Assembly: GCF_000455605.1 (NCBI RefSeq)
Contig: NC_017025.1
Span: forward strand, 2,480,001-2,544,000
Direction of reading: 5' to 3'
Length of the DNA stretch: 64,000 bases
Origin: Flavobacterium indicum GPTSA100-9 = DSM 17447
GTDB taxonomy: Bacteria; Bacteroidota; Bacteroidia; Flavobacteriales; Flavobacteriaceae
The translations under genes were made by a program, and so were the position numbers. Position 1 is the first letter of the stretch. Each line of letters begins with the position of its first letter. A model generated the notes under the pieces. That model worked only from the letters and a program-made list of their open reading frames with translations, had not been told where the DNA came from and did no database searches. Shown here in pieces: positions 2,110 to 61,399 of the stretch.

Positions 2110-4542
2110 TTACGATTTACCTACCCAATGTTTTGCTTGATTATAATCAATAAAATAACGAACGCTAACTGAAAATGCATGATTCAACATATCCTGATTC
2201 ATTATACTTTTTACATTATTAGAAAAGTTTTTGACAATTGTTCTATTAAAATCTGCTGCATTATTTCGATACAAAATCGTCATTTGACTTCCCGGAGCAA
2301 ACCACCAACTATAAGACAAATCAAAATTCCAAAGATTTAAATTAGAATTCTTATTTTCGTTATACACATATTCTTCCACTTTTCCATTTTCAAGTAGTCG
2401 GTAAGTAGATTTGTTATCTGCGAAAGACCAATAATGACGTAGATTCAATTTAAAGTTCATTCTTGAATTAATGGAATATTTCCCTTCCATTCCATTCTCA
2501 ATTGTTTGTTTATCCCTTCTGGCGTATACAATTTCATCGCCATCTAAATCAATCCACCCTAATTCGTTTTTATCCACATTGTACGACAGATTGTAAATGA
2601 ACATCAATTTATTGCTAAATCGGTATCGAGGACTTATAGAAACACCCGAAAACCACCAACCTTTTTGCTCTGCAAAACCGTACCAAGGATTAATATCAAA
2701 AGCAAATTTATTGTTGTAATTTGTTGATATCCAACCAGAAGTATTGTAATATTTTGGATAAACCGTATAACGACCCTCTACCCTAGCGTCATAGTAATCG
2801 TACACATCAAACATTCTTGCAGTAACATTAAACCCTGCTGCATGATTTTTTTTATTAGTTACACTCATGTTAAAATTCAAACTTTGCTCTTGCAAATAAT
2901 TGGAATCATTATTGAATTGTGAATACCAATTTAAATTCATTCGAAACGAATTCATTTTTTGTGTAGGTTGAAGAATTCTGTAACTTATATTTCCACTTAA
3001 TGAATAATAATTCGTTTGAAAATTAACCCCCAAATCATTGTTATCAAAATCTTTTGAAACATAATTTCCGCCTATACTGTATCTTATTTTACCTGATGTT
3101 TCAGCCAGATACAATTCGCTTACAAAACCTTTTTTATTAGCTAAATCTCCAAATTCATTTACATAACTATACTTTAAAGCTCCATTTGCATTATAGGTGT
3201 TTTTTTTCGTATTTAAGTCAAAAGCCAAAGCAGAAACATTGGCATCACGAAATTCGCCATCACGAGTAACATTAGTATTTACTAATGAAATAGAAGAGTT
3301 TTGATTAAAACGTTGGTCTAATACGGTAATATTATAATTTGCAATTGGCTCAACAGTAACAGATCTAAATTCGTTAGTAAGCGAATTTTGAACCGTAACA
3401 TCCGTTTTTTCAGTTACAGCATTTAAAACGCCAACCCCTAATCCGCCTTTTGTCCTACCAGAAACTTTTAATGCATTCAATAGTTTTACACTAGATGGAT
3501 ATTCAGTTACTTCTTCATTTTCACTTAATTCTGGATATGTTGATGGAGCGCCACCAATTCTTCTTGAGTAAAACAATCCCGCTTTATTAAACAAATCAGT
3601 ACCTTCTGTAAAAAAAGGTCTGTTCTCGTTAAATACTTGTTCAAACGGACCTAGATTTAAAATTTTATTATCAAACTTTGTTTGTCCAAAATCCGGAATT
3701 AACACTGCATCCAAAGTAAACGCATCAGACAAACCATATTTCAAGTCCATTCCACCTTTTATAGTTCCTTGTGCTTTTTCATTAGGTAAACTATTTAAAT
3801 AATAAGAAGCATAAGGTATTAAAAACAAACGTGTTGGTGTTTCAATATTTTCTATTCCTTCTAATAAGCCTGCTTGTTGTGTAAAAGCACCAATTCTATT
3901 ATCTACTTTATTCCAAGTATATTTGTAACGCAATCTTCGTACTTCCCTAAAAAAGTTAATCCCCCACACTTGTTTATCTGCTTTTGAAAATCGGATAGCT
4001 GCATATGGAATTTTCATTTCAACTTGCCAACCATTATTCGTAATTCGAGCTTCACTCATCCAAATGGCATCCCAAGAATAATCTTCACCACCTTGAGTTG
4101 TTCTTACACAATCGGCTTGACCGTTGGCAGCATTAACAAAAAAACTATATTCTTGTTGACCATCATTAAAACCATTGATAAAAATTCCAAAAAAGTCGGA
4201 AGTTCCAAAATTATCTCGTTCTGTTATTTCCTTTAAAATTTTATCAGGATGTGAATCATATAAAGTTGCTGCCACATATAGAGCGTGATCGTCGTATAGA
4301 ATTTTCACTTCTGTTTTAAGAGAATCGGGTTCTGGCATACCATTATTGGGTTCAAAACCAAAAAATTGATTTGCAACGGGAACATTTACCCAAGCTTCTT
4401 CATCAAATTTTCCGTCTAATTTAATATCACTTTGCAAACGCTTGGCTTGAAGTTTCTTCTTTTCAATAACCACTTGAGCATCTTGACCAAAAGAACACAA
4501 GAATCCAGAAATAATAAAACATAAAGTATAAAAAGTTTTCAT
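2110..4542 (-). CDS. DUF5916 family outer-membrane protein with CBM9-like N-terminal domain
   Basis: An 810-residue exported protein with signal peptide MKTFYTLCFIISGFLCSFGQ. After it comes a CBM9-like beta-sandwich domain at about 35-230, with LDGKFDEEAWVNVPVANQF and later VEMKIPYAAIRF, typical of carbohydrate-binding module 9 proteins. The remaining ~570 residues are aromatic, alternating strands (SLSGNISYRI, FDLSYSWWFAPGSQMTILYR) ending in VSVRYFIDYNQ, which looks like an outer-membrane beta-barrel. DUF5916 proteins of this design are widespread in Bacteroidota and are sometimes labelled hydrolase. No catalytic residues can be named here and the substrate is unknown. It is transcribed alone on the minus strand. 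Confidence 0.85.
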   Translation of the reverse strand: MKTFYTLCFIISGFLCSFGQDAQVVIEKKKLQAKRLQSDIKLDGKFDEEAWVNVPVANQFFGFEPNNGMPEPDSLKTEVKILYDDHALYVAATLYDSHPDKILKEITERDNFGTSDFFGIFINGFNDGQQEYSFFVNAANGQADCVRTTQGGEDYSWDAIWMSEARITNNGWQVEMKIPYAAIRFSKADKQVWGINFFREVRRLRYKYTWNKVDNRIGAFTQQAGLLEGIENIETPTRLFLIPYASYYLNSLPNEKAQGTIKGGMDLKYGLSDAFTLDAVLIPDFGQTKFDNKILNLGPFEQVFNENRPFFTEGTDLFNKAGLFYSRRIGGAPSTYPELSENEEVTEYPSSVKLLNALKVSGRTKGGLGVGVLNAVTEKTDVTVQNSLTNEFRSVTVEPIANYNITVLDQRFNQNSSISLVNTNVTRDGEFRDANVSALAFDLNTKKNTYNANGALKYSYVNEFGDLANKKGFVSELYLAETSGKIRYSIGGNYVSKDFDNNDLGVNFQTNYYSLSGNISYRILQPTQKMNSFRMNLNWYSQFNNDSNYLQEQSLNFNMSVTNKKNHAAGFNVTARMFDVYDYYDARVEGRYTVYPKYYNTSGWISTNYNNKFAFDINPWYGFAEQKGWWFSGVSISPRYRFSNKLMFIYNLSYNVDKNELGWIDLDGDEIVYARRDKQTIENGMEGKYSINSRMNFKLNLRHYWSFADNKSTYRLLENGKVEEYVYNENKNSNLNLWNFDLSYSWWFAPGSQMTILYRNNAADFNRTIVKNFSNNVKSIMNQDMLNHAFSVSVRYFIDYNQAKHWVGKS

Positions 4543-57210: not shown

Positions 57211-58890
57211 TTACAATTTCATAATGGTAATATTCGATCCGGCTACCGTTGAAGTGGGTTGAGATGCTGTTGAACTATTAGCACTTACCGCCACAATTCT
57301 GAATGTATCACCAGCAGATAATTGAATAACTTTATTCAAAGAACCTTGTCCTCTAATACCTGTAGGCAGTACATTATGCAAAGTTGGATAATCACCATAA
57401 AAAACATCTCCACCATTAGACCCATAAGTAGCATTATTTTTAATTAAGGTAAGGTAAGGTGGAACTGTGCTACTTGCAGGAGTTGCGTCATTACACAATA
57501 GTTTTACTTGAATTAGATAAGTCCCTGCTCCTGTTGTGCCAACTGTAAAAACTCCAGTGGTATTGTTGTAAGTCCCTAAAGTTGGTGAATTGATCACATT
57601 ATTGAACACAATAGTTGTAGGACTTGTAGAAGTTGCTACAGGTAAAGTTTCTGATGAACCACCTACTTTATTAGCAAATAGTTGAACTGAAGCTCCACTT
57701 CCACCAGCACTTGGTGTTACCCATTGCGTTGCTCCGGCACCATCTGTAGTCAACACTTGATTTGCAGTACCTCTTGTCGTTGGCAACGTAAAATTATCAG
57801 AAGTTGATTGGGCATTTACTTTTAGTTGTCCTGTTACTTCAGTTAATGTATTAACGTTGCTTCCAATACGTGTCATGTTATCTTGTGTAATAGAAGCATC
57901 ACTAATATTATTCCCAATTACAGTTACGTTATTTCTATTCGTTAGCAAGTTTACATTTGTACCGATAGCGATAACATTATTATGATTATTTCCGTTGTTT
58001 ACCGAATTATATCCAATAACTACATTATTGGCTCCAATTGTATTTGAAAACAAAGTATTACGACCTAAAGTAGTATTATTAGCACCAGATGTATTAGACC
58101 TTAAAGATTGAGATCCTACAGCTACGTTATAAATTCCTGATAAATTATTTTCTAATACATCAGCTCCTACTGCCACATTATGAATTCCTGTTGTATTGTA
58201 TCTTAAAGTTCCTATTCCAAGTGCTGTATTAGCATGTCCTGTTGTATTTGCACTCAAAGTATTGTAACCTACACCCGTATTCCAGTTACCATTAAGACCT
58301 CCAGAAGGCACTGTAATTGCACCACTATTATACCCAAAAAACGTATTTAATCCTAAACTGCTATTAGATATAAAACCTGAACGGACATTGTTTACTTTAA
58401 ACTCTAATGACTTATTATCTACATTACCAATAAAATTAGTTCCTTCAACCGTTCCTATATTTCCATTTTTATTCCAACCATCTCCTGAAGTTTTAGCATA
58501 TAAAGCATAAGGTGCACTCAATAATTGAGAAGTACCTGTAATCGTATAGGAAGAACCGCCTGTTGGATCGGTTTCTGTTTTGATGAAATAGGGACCGTTT
58601 GCCCAGTTGATAGTAGCCATGTTTCCTGAAACTACTGCACCACCACCTATTTCTAAGCTCACTAAACCGTTTGCATTAGAGGTTGGGGTTTGTGTTTCTA
58701 CATAAACGGCTGTTCCTGTAGCCGAACCTTGTAAAATACTAATTTGCATGCCTACCGGTTGGTTGATCACTAAGTTATTGGTAGTGTTGCGCACTACGGC
58801 TTGGTAGCTCATTTTTTCTGGAGCTTGCGCGAAAGCTAAACTTCCGATAAATAAAGAAGTAGCTACAATAAGTTTTTTTATATTTTTCAT
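57211..58890 (-). CDS. Exported adhesin-like protein: YadA-head-like repeats and C1q-like tail
   Basis: A 559-residue exported protein, signal IKKLIVATSLFIGSLAFAQ. Residues ~25-138 form a domain ([19 protein letters not shown]) shared at DNA level with the next gene upstream. About five 17-residue repeats follow (~205-300), of the form xxxGxxxLxxNTxGxxN: TALGIGTLRYNTTGIHN, VAVGADVLENNLSGIYN, VAVGSQSLRSNTSGANN. These resemble the YadA/Hep_Hag head repeats of trimeric adhesins. The last ~150 residues are a C1q/TNF-like beta domain. There is no T9SS sorting domain or membrane anchor. It is last in a three-gene unit. Confidence 0.78.
   Translation of the reverse strand: MKNIKKLIVATSLFIGSLAFAQAPEKMSYQAVVRNTTNNLVINQPVGMQISILQGSATGTAVYVETQTPTSNANGLVSLEIGGGAVVSGNMATINWANGPYFIKTETDPTGGSSYTITGTSQLLSAPYALYAKTSGDGWNKNGNIGTVEGTNFIGNVDNKSLEFKVNNVRSGFISNSSLGLNTFFGYNSGAITVPSGGLNGNWNTGVGYNTLSANTTGHANTALGIGTLRYNTTGIHNVAVGADVLENNLSGIYNVAVGSQSLRSNTSGANNTTLGRNTLFSNTIGANNVVIGYNSVNNGNNHNNVIAIGTNVNLLTNRNNVTVIGNNISDASITQDNMTRIGSNVNTLTEVTGQLKVNAQSTSDNFTLPTTRGTANQVLTTDGAGATQWVTPSAGGSGASVQLFANKVGGSSETLPVATSTSPTTIVFNNVINSPTLGTYNNTTGVFTVGTTGAGTYLIQVKLLCNDATPASSTVPPYLTLIKNNATYGSNGGDVFYGDYPTLHNVLPTGIRGQGSLNKVIQLSAGDTFRIVAVSANSSTASQPTSTVAGSNITIMKL
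58493..58817 (-). repeat. Direct repeat, copy A (shared domain of adhesin-like gene)
   Basis: About 325 bp coding for the shared [15 protein letters not shown] domain, matching 59635-59959 at a constant offset of 1142 bp without indels and with about 17 differences by eye. Confidence 0.85.
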
Positions 58891-58901
58891 GATTGTCATA
58901 A

Positions 58902-60254
58902 TTATTTAATTCTTACAATGTTCAAAAACGTACTTCCATCTGACGAGGTGTTAGCGGCTGTAGCATTTGATGACGAAAAAGCTCTAAAGCGTAGAGTATC
59001 TCCAGCATTTAGATAAATAAAAGTATCCAAATGACTCGCTTGTCTTAGTACATTTTCTGAAGTATTTCCAGATGTAAAGATTGAAGAAAGATACAAAGCA
59101 CCTGTTTTACCAGCACCAACAGAATTATTTTTATCCATGTAGTAAAGTACTCCTACAGAAAAAAGAGTACCTGTTGCAGAAACTCCTCTTACTTGTGAGT
59201 TTATTTGATACCAGCCTGCCCCTGAGCTACCAACTGTAAAAATAGAGCCATTCCAAGTGTTACCACCTGTAAGACTTGCGTTTGGGTTATTAGAACCAGA
59301 AAAACTAAGTACGGTGGTACTAGTGCCTCCAGTTAAATCAGGAATATTTTGAATAGTGGTATTAGTAACGCTTACTTCTACATTTGGATACGCACTTGCC
59401 GCAGCACTTGGAGTTACCCATTGTGTATTGTAATCTGTTCCATCCACTTTTGCAAGAACTTGTCCTGTTGTTCCACCTGTAGGTACACCTTGTCCGTTAG
59501 CTCCCGGAACACCTGCTGGCCCTTGTGGTCCTGTTTCACCTTGTAATCCTTGTGGTCCAGACGCACCAGTTAATCCGATTGGTCCTTGTGGTCCTGCAGG
59601 TCCTTGCGGGCCAGGAGTTGAACTCCCTGATGTTTTGGCATATAAAGCATAAGGTGCACTCAATAATTGAGAAGTACCTGTAATGGTATAGGAAGAACCG
59701 CCTGTTGGATCGGTTTCTGTTTTGATGAAATAGGGACCGTTTGCCCAGTTGATAGTAGCCATGTTTCCTGAAACTATTGTACCACCACCAATTTCTAGCG
59801 TCACTAATCCGTTCGCATTAGAGATTGGAGTTTGTGTTTCTACATAAACGGCTGTTCCTGTAGCCGAACCTTGTAAAATACTAATTTGCATGCCTACCGG
59901 TTGGTTGGTTACTAAATTATTAGTAGTGTTACGCACTACGGCTTGGTAGCTCATTTTTTCAGGTACTTGAATTGTGGTTGTAACAGTTAATACAATTGTA
60001 CTGTTATTAGTTACAATACCAACATCAGCAAGTGTTTGACCGTCTTGAATTGTTGTACCATTCCAAGATATGACTTGGTTTATAACTGGAATTGAAATTT
60101 GATCAAATATTTTGTTCTTAACATTTTCTCCACTATCGGATGGCTCTACATCTAATGAAATAGTTCCATTATTAGGTGTTTGCACGAATAAATTCATTCC
60201 GTACGTTTGTAATGTTAAGAAAGAAAATATAATTAGTGTGTAAATTTTTTTCAT
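58902..60254 (-). CDS. Exported protein: ubiquitin-like domain, shared domain, collagen-like repeat, C1q-like domain
   Basis: A 450-residue exported protein. The signal peptide [19 protein letters not shown] should be cut before Met20, which aligns with Met1 of ubiquitin. Residues 20-92 follow ubiquitin without a gap to ubiquitin position 64: [33 protein letters not shown] count 32 of 72 identical by hand. Residues 98-210 are the domain shared with the downstream protein. Residues 215-256 are 14 unbroken Gly-X-Y triplets ([16 protein letters not shown]). About 290-450 is a C1q/TNF-like beta domain ending TFLNIVRIK. It lies 2 bp after the small T9SS gene and 11 bp before the adhesin-like gene. 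Confidence 0.82.
59635..59959 (-). repeat. Direct repeat, copy B (shared domain of ubiquitin/collagen-like gene)
   Basis: Partner of 58493-58817. Near-identity at DNA level, including synonymous sites, points to recent duplication or gene conversion. Confidence 0.85.
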
Positions 60255-60847: not shown

Positions 60848-61399
60848 TTATTTTTTTAGAATTGTATAAGTTAAACCATTTGAAAGCTTTAAATAATAAT
60901 TTCCATTTGTTAAGTTTTCAAGATTAATAGTATTGTTAGAAGCTAATATCCCGTTTAATAAGGTTCTTCCCATTACATCATATATGGTGTAACTTTCAGT
61001 ATTTGTTAGACCTATAATATTAATTAAATTTGTGGTAGGATTAGGATAAATCTTCACTTGATCTATGCTAAAGTCTTTTATACTAAGATTTCCTGTTACT
61101 TGTGGTAGTGGCATAGATCCGTCTTCGTCTAATAACCAGTTAGTAACCAAATCTGGTGTAGCAACATTATTTGTTGAATAATAATAAGATGAATTCGGAG
61201 ATTTAATGATCCAAAAAAGACCTGTAGACCAAAACATAGTATTACTGTTAGGTCCCAGGTAATTCGGCTTTCCATTTAGCATTCCATTTTGAATGTATGT
61301 ACCATTTACGCTAGAAGTGCCTGCTCCAGAAATGACTAGGTTTTGAGAATAAGTTAAAAAAGTTAATGTAAAGCTTAAAATTGTAAAGATTTTTTTCAT
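60848..61399 (-). CDS. Secreted protein with T9SS type A sorting domain (183 aa)
   Basis: A 183-residue exported protein, signal MKKIFTILSFTLTFLTYSQ. Residues ~20-100 are a small Trp/Tyr/Asn-rich domain with VSGAGTSSVNGTYIQNG-like LVISGAGTSSVNGTYIQN, FWIIKSPNSSYYYSTNN and TNWLLDEDGSMPLP, reminiscent of short repeats in Bacteroidota surface proteins. The last ~75 residues are a T9SS sorting domain (VKIYPNPTTNLINIIGLTN, YTIYDVMGRTLLNG). It carries the same upstream motif as the following unit. Confidence 0.85.
   Translation of the reverse strand: MKKIFTILSFTLTFLTYSQNLVISGAGTSSVNGTYIQNGMLNGKPNYLGPNSNTMFWSTGLFWIIKSPNSSYYYSTNNVATPDLVTNWLLDEDGSMPLPQVTGNLSIKDFSIDQVKIYPNPTTNLINIIGLTNTESYTIYDVMGRTLLNGILASNNTINLENLTNGNYYLKLSNGLTYTILKK

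Follow-up and report, generated by a model that had tools for sequence, protein, structure and literature searches.

Among the closest described systems is BfUbb of Bacteroides fragilis, a free ubiquitin of 76 aa that is 63% identical to human ubiquitin (PMC3352274; PMC5705921). The ubiquitin of this species is called "unique" in the title of the 2011 paper, and the 2017 paper counts the species among a few bacteria that have such a gene. Likeness of another kind is found in two bacterial fibres. The MAT fibres of Bdellovibrio combine a constant N-terminal domain with swapped C-terminal tips (PMC10769870); the words ubiquitin and collagen are absent from the main text of that paper. In Lcl of Legionella, a type II secretion substrate, an N-terminal part with a helix binds the bacterial surface and is followed by a collagen stalk and a C-terminal head (PMC11162425). 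Among the matches listed in our literature search, which left subscription journals mostly outside, no publication on a surface-anchored or fibre-fused bacterial ubiquitin was found.

The stretch of 64,000 nt from Flavobacterium indicum GPTSA100-9 analysed here (the window; NC_017025.1, positions 2,480,001 to 2,544,000) encodes a protein with parallels to each of these systems. As in the published description of BfUbb, the signal peptide, which is predicted in the window protein, ends directly before Met1 of the ubiquitin, a C-terminal Gly-Gly is missing, and the protein is (here putatively) exported. An earlier sequence-only reading had pointed to the secreted B. fragilis ubiquitin, and a likeness in kind is upheld. 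The window domain differs from BfUbb in its lower identity to human ubiquitin (45%), in its fusion to a domain termed D2, a collagen stretch and a head, which gives a mature protein of 431 aa instead of a free one of 76 aa, and in adjoining, at 2 nt, a partner gene with a T9SS tail. With the MAT fibres it shares the constant N-terminal part and the swapped tips, but the NCBIfam profile Bdello_MAT_N matches residues 87-161 only weakly (27.8 bits, cut-off 60). The order of parts resembles that of Lcl, whereas ubiquitin and D2 stand in place of the N-terminal helix, the head has no Lcl_C match (Pfam), and the NCBIfam score for Lcl is 54.9 against a cut-off of 500. A diverged ubiquitin appears to be built into an exchangeable fibre and to belong to a broad class of exported bacterial ubiquitins. 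The sequence-only reading had noted neither the partner gene nor the exchange of the N-terminal part nor the spread of this class.

A diverged ubiquitin without conjugation tail

The ubiquitin family profile of Pfam (PF00240) matches residues 22-92 of the window protein with 46.5 bits (E 3.2e-12), well over the gathering score of 25.4, and a search of the PDB with the single window segment found ubiquitin at about 2e-11. Aligned to human ubiquitin, 32 of 71 columns (45%) are identical. The first 61 residues align without a gap, and a one-residue gap follows Ile61. The alignment score of 133 compares with a mean of 24.6 and a maximum of 52 among 2000 shuffles of the segment. The homology from Met1 onwards that the sequence-only reading had proposed is upheld, while its hand count (32 identities in 72, ungapped to position 64) needed slight correction. 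The beta-grasp fold of the domain is putative and drawn from sequence profiles; hydrophobic residues occupy 13 of 14 core positions of the ubiquitin structure, the exception being I23, which is replaced by glycine. That the domain is a genuine, diverged member of the ubiquitin family is well supported by these comparisons. It is the single ubiquitin above the Pfam cut-off in its own genome, which consists of one contig of 2,993,089 bases.

The losses noticed earlier reappear in the alignment to human ubiquitin. The Leu8-Ile44-Val70 patch has become P8, S44 and T71, Lys48 and Lys63 correspond to T48 and N64, and K6, K11 and K33 are altered as well. Ubiquitin residues 72-76 fall outside the alignment, and the C-terminal Arg-Gly-Gly is gone. 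With tail, patch and both lysines missing, the domain is unlikely to be conjugated and would not tag proteins, which agrees with the earlier reading. K27 and K29 are kept. Both are structural residues of ubiquitin and are retained in all 11 exported domains aligned, so that their conservation needs no role in linkage.

Structure of the window gene

The features of the locus are collected in Table 1.

Table 1. Position of the ubiquitin fibre gene, its parts and its neighbours in the window.
Feature	Position	Strand	Remarks
Whole gene, signal peptide-ubiquitin-D2-collagen-head	58902..60254	-	ATG start, 450 aa, no Cys
Predicted signal peptide, residues 1-19	60198..60254	-	Ends T-Y-G directly 5' of ubiquitin Met1
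Ubiquitin domain, residues 20-92	59979..60197	-	Pfam profile, PDB search, alignment
D2 domain, residues 97-209	59628..59966	-	Without Pfam family
14 Gly-X-Y triplets, residues 215-256	59487..59612	-	Motif count
Variable head, about residues 285-450	58905..59402	-	C1q-like only via one remote relative
VSYT partner gene, 163 aa	60257..60748	-	VSYT residues 24-76 and T9SS type A sorting tail
Second D2 fibre gene, 562 aa, without ubiquitin	57211..58899	-	Begins 2 nt past the ubiquitin gene
Small T9SS-tailed protein, upstream	60848..61399	-	Unit membership uncertain

Signal peptides were called throughout by a simple rule, a hydrophobic stretch followed by a small-x-small site, and not by a dedicated predictor. 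In the window protein the best nine-residue mean hydropathy is 2.72, with Thr at -3 and Gly at -1, and the export assumed in the sequence-only reading is accordingly predicted by this rule as well.

D2 matched no Pfam family. Its copy in the second fibre gene is 94.1% identical to that of the ubiquitin gene at the DNA level (319/339). A D2-like stretch, 42% identical over query residues 96-206, is likewise found on the Aureispira anguillae plasmid NZ_AP026868.1 (12809-13141), in a gene annotated as hypothetical. The Gly-X-Y triplets were confirmed in number; the Pfam collagen profile scores 24.4 bits in the window copy, just below its cut-off of 27.2, which is exceeded by the relatives P0013 (79.2), P0026 (59.8) and P0018 (52.4).

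The head, for which a C1q-like fold had been suggested, has no Pfam match at E<=1 and nothing significant in the PDB, and a C1q identity derived from the window head alone was dropped. Among five aligned heads, the C1q profile (PF00386) passes its cut-off in one (31.8 versus 23.7 bits), the second fibre of the Flavobacterium genome G461, which is 23% identical to the window head. The head of the ubiquitin fibre in the same genome misses the cut-off with 16.9 bits, and the remaining aligned heads, including the nearest (64% identical to the window head), have no C1q match at E<=0.01. In a search with a profile made from the five heads, C1q and TNF-type chains are among the nearest matches, none of them significant. 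The suggestion of a C1q-like head may therefore be kept as a lead only, through this one relative. In a Pfam scan of ten homologues, Lcl_C passes in P0011 and misses its cut-off by 0.1 bit in P0004; YadA-head and C1q matches stay below cut-off.

It could be argued from these parts that the protein is an adhesin whose ubiquitin-like face is turned towards the eukaryotic cells of a host or protist, and the sequence-only reading had leaned this way. A eukaryote-like ubiquitin domain on an exported, adhesin-like protein is what such a mimic would look like. Also in its favour, recombinant BfUbb is reported to bind human E1 and to inhibit ubiquitination in vitro (PMC3352274; PMC5705921), and the Lcl_C head of P0011 shares its family with an adhesin head that binds to the host. 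However, the known receptors and enzymes of ubiquitin would not be expected to recognise a domain that has lost the Ile44 patch and Arg-Gly-Gly, and no host is known. By analogy with the two studied fibres, whose C-terminal head is the outward binder and whose N-terminus stays close to the cell, the window ubiquitin would be basal and not at the tip. We consider mimicry quite improbable.

The VSYT partner and ubiquitin on either chain

The partner gene stops 2 nt before the start of the ubiquitin gene, and pairing of this kind is frequent. Of 56 D2 loci (L203 and L228-L282), 41 are preceded by a VSYT gene at a distance of no more than 400 nt; the 56 are the best-ranking loci listed from other flavobacteria and leave out the ubiquitin genes of the window, G461 and G419. 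Likewise, when eight genomes were selected because they have D2, every one of their 11 VSYT matches stood beside a D2 gene, in one case (G419, C201) with a single gene in between. In G419 the VSYT partner and the fibre are separated by another T9SS gene.

Ubiquitin is fused to either of the two partners. It is joined to D2 in the window, G461 and G419, and to VSYT in G398 and G606. The fusion in G398 is a protein of 574 aa with a T9SS-like tail, and its gene is followed 38 nt downstream, on the same strand, by a D2 fibre gene that lacks ubiquitin; the fusion in G606 lies at a contig end. The VSYT profile was built partly from fused sequences, and the independent tests are those with single sequences: in a small set, the window VSYT segment alone retrieves both of these fusions (E 4.5e-6 and 4.6e-5), and in a search of a whole genome it retrieves that of G398 (1.5e-4). 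As 12 of the 17 regions picked for ubiquitin contain neither D2 nor VSYT in the fetched stretch, the link of ubiquitin to this pair rests on five genomes including that of the window. The 12 regions encode short or about 170-aa ubiquitin proteins; another of the 17, L215, has no ubiquitin ORF under the ATG rule.

The occurrence of ubiquitin on D2 or on VSYT is most simply covered by a single picture, in which D2 would dock on VSYT and ubiquitin would sit at the junction. Our preferred explanation, to which we give an even chance, is that a diverged ubiquitin was captured as the basal mature N-terminus of an exported, VSYT-paired fibre and makes contacts at this junction instead of tagging proteins. 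The system would comprise two genes, one for a small protein with VSYT and a T9SS tail and one for a fibre with signal peptide, D2, a stalk of collagen or another kind, and an exchangeable head. Both chains would be exported, the sorting tail would fix VSYT on the outer membrane, and D2 would dock there. The stalk would trimerise, the fibre being probably trimeric, and the head would bind the target. Ubiquitin beside the D2-VSYT junction may then serve as a non-covalent contact, a spacer or a lock. The docking, the trimer, the location on the surface and the role at the junction are inferred and the export signal is predicted, while the ubiquitin homology, the pairing of the genes, the fusion to either partner, the exchange of the cassette, the signs of purifying selection and the swapping of heads come directly from the computations.

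Besides the limit to five genomes and the T9SS gene that intervenes in G419, two observations at these loci count against the junction explanation. Pfam and NCBIfam detect no T9SS C-terminal sorting domain in the window fibre itself, although the upstream partner carries one and SprA of the T9SS is encoded in the same genome, which leaves the crossing of the outer membrane by the fibre unaccounted for. Furthermore, 15 of the 56 D2 loci have no adjoining VSYT gene, in one case because sequence is lacking; nine of these (L248-L256) are all more remote D2 copies.

Cassette exchange and head swapping

The N-terminal 120 residues, used as a query, yielded 90 proteins. The ubiquitin domain is present in 85 of them and D2 in 81 of those 85; because the query included both domains, these counts neither argue for a role of ubiquitin nor measure how often the two co-occur. 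A crude word test sorts the 90 tails into 18 clusters, some of which are made up of truncated proteins. P0082-P0085, of roughly 700 aa, have ubiquitin of this subtype but lack D2 in the rest of the protein, which again counts against a place of ubiquitin at the D2-VSYT junction; in the three of them scanned with Pfam, ubiquitin and a T9SS tail were found.

The same domain occurs in other Flavobacterium proteins, for example on the D2 fibres of G461 and G419. In both genomes the gene is located at the same site as in the window, between a crp-like gene and luxR-like and pirin genes. Between the window and G461, dS is low in the signal peptide (0.08), ubiquitin (0.08) and D2 (0.06) and high in the collagen stretch (0.92), the head (1.04) and the flanking genes for aspartate aminotransferase (1.08), the crp-like protein (1.38) and pirin (1.67). 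This contrast implies that the N-terminal part was recently exchanged and that the heads were replaced. Intermediate values belong to the partner gene (0.34) and the luxR-like gene (0.43). Since these are also less diverged, more than the cassette was exchanged, and the cassette exchange probably sits inside a larger, older one. In the comparison with G419, dS is 0.15 for ubiquitin and 0.30 for D2.

Two fibre genes adjoin in G461 (L198, 4211-6253 and 6269-7942); the DNA of their D2 regions does not differ at any of 339 bases, which points to gene conversion. Carriage of the cassette by phages or plasmids was considered and rejected: no match was found in phages, and the three plasmid matches each span at most 25% of the query. 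In the 80 relatives kept out of 127 on viral contigs, the matches lie from residue 102 onward, concern mostly collagen and in no case include the ubiquitin domain.

It is conceivable that ubiquitin is a passenger, a stable fold that rides with the cassette and has no role of its own. D2 fibres, present in 64/150 genomes of the genus and 44/149 of the family, are far commoner than ubiquitin of any kind, which was found in 13/398 genomes of the genus, 8/397 of the family and 6/395 of the phylum (own genome counted each time). The ubiquitin domain nevertheless shows signs of purifying selection, with dN/dS of 0.14 and 0.36 in two pairs, on as few as 6 and 16 changes. Its fusion to either partner and the 16 distinct, near-identical versions of the domain among P0001-P0081 likewise speak against a mere passenger, a reading to which we attach little credence.

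Phylogeny and origin

The phylogeny that the sequence-only reading had called for comprises 157 rows and 74 columns, and 106 of its 154 inner branches are open. The window sequence groups with eight others in one strongly diverged clade of nine rows (SH-aLRT 98). Short ubiquitins of flavobacteria form a separate group (SH-aLRT 90, below the 95 mark of the tool). Otherwise eukaryotic and bacterial rows are intermixed without support. The window group is therefore recovered as one clade, while the eukaryotic origin that had been proposed lacks a supported backbone in these 74 columns. Transfer of ubiquitin from eukaryotes to bacteria is plausible, although the tree identifies no donor and does not tell how many transfers took place. 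The residues S22 and Q28 were considered as a mark of a single bacterial origin and rejected, because each of them, present in 33 of 71 bacterial domains, occurs in eukaryotic units too (20 and 25 of 134, respectively). In a further homologue search eukaryotic polyubiquitins dominate the 120 matches listed, among which no new bacterial relatives were found.

The separation of the two groups bears on the question of whether the window ubiquitin is a displayed antagonism factor that acts on neighbouring bacteria like free BfUbb and is delivered by the fibre. Secreted BfUbb is reported to inhibit other B. fragilis strains (PMC5705921), and its use against kin makes antagonism a serious rival. Short secreted ubiquitins are also found in flavobacteria, in tandem in G604, G404 and G1082, and the signal peptide is placed alike in front of Met1. 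Against this, the window clade is strongly diverged and stands apart from the short flavobacterial ubiquitins, and its ubiquitin is fixed to a fibre instead of being free. On balance we regard delivery of an antagonist as unlikely.

In Pedobacter cryoconitis (L074, 3562-4964), four genes for short secreted ubiquitins follow one another. By eye, the short Flavobacterium ubiquitins of L014, L017, L020, L021 and the 822 frame of L019 have Cys at ubiquitin positions 19, 40 and 57 and near the C-terminus; these may form disulphides, which would suit an exported protein. A diverged ubiquitin-like stretch is also located, not N-terminally, in a long surface-type protein of G283 (L011, a 1874-aa open frame).

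Exported ubiquitins in other phyla

Eleven ubiquitin domains were used as queries in a scan of one genome per species; at least 311 stretches were confirmed, and the analysis covers the best 80. These best 80 loci contain 86 ubiquitin ORFs, in 72 of which Met1 is directly preceded by a hydrophobic stretch with a small-x-small site; in one there is only the hydrophobic stretch, and 13 have neither or too little sequence. When applied to internal methionines of other ORFs at the same loci, the rule was satisfied in 51 of 1551 cases. The 73 signal-positive ORFs occur in 70 loci from 13 named phyla, one of them archaeal, with one locus unplaced. By their record titles, 19 of the 70 loci belong to named strains of five phyla (Pseudomonadota 11, Bacteroidota 4, Actinomycetota 2, Planctomycetota 1, Bacillota 1); the phylum labels of the remaining loci may be wrong because these are metagenome bins.

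The exported ubiquitins (L037-L116) and the window protein have in common a signal peptide directly before Met1, followed by parts of surface proteins. The former are nearer to human ubiquitin, with a lowest phmmer score among the signal-peptide domains of 71 bits versus 41.6 for the window frame, and their surface parts are of other kinds than the D2-collagen combination of the window. Among the 73 positives, Pfam recognised 17 autotransporter barrels, 6 T9SS tails, 5 IPTL-CTERM and 2 SLH domains, and NCBIfam 4 choice-of-anchor U and 3 midcut-by-XrtH domains. Many members are without a named anchor, and anchors may be missed because some ORFs run off the contig. Arg-Gly-Gly or Lys-Gly-Gly at positions 74-76 is present in only 4 of the 73. 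The signal-peptide ubiquitin of Dyella sp. OK004 (L067, ORF at 3863) ends exactly in Arg-Gly-Gly, its conjugation tail being intact.

Eukaryotic contamination as the source of the many-phyla result is unlikely for the signal-peptide set, because the signal rule was satisfied in 72/86 versus 51/1551 cases and because of the 19/70 loci from named strains. For individual bins, and for the 13 ORFs that lack a signal peptide, it may nevertheless apply. Two actinobacterial bins (L105 and L083) have paired ubiquitin ORFs that lack a signal peptide and have tails ending in FTG; these pairs may be of another kind or contamination. On plasmid pRUMAL01 of Ruminococcus albus (L197, 3959-4699), an annotated ubiquitin family protein is encoded near a dockerin protein and an integrase.

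Implications

Near-eukaryotic ubiquitins with signal peptides and surface parts are thus distributed over 13 named phyla, five of them represented by named strains. We tentatively propose, at somewhat less than an even chance, that exported ubiquitin is a general module, which may stand as mature N-terminus on the surface anchor of any lineage and would, in Flavobacterium, be interchangeable at the junction of a T9SS-anchored adaptor with a tip-swapping fibre, on either of the two chains. If this is true, ubiquitin would have been taken up and kept by prokaryotes as an extracellular module without conjugation, and would lead a second, non-conjugating life outside cells.
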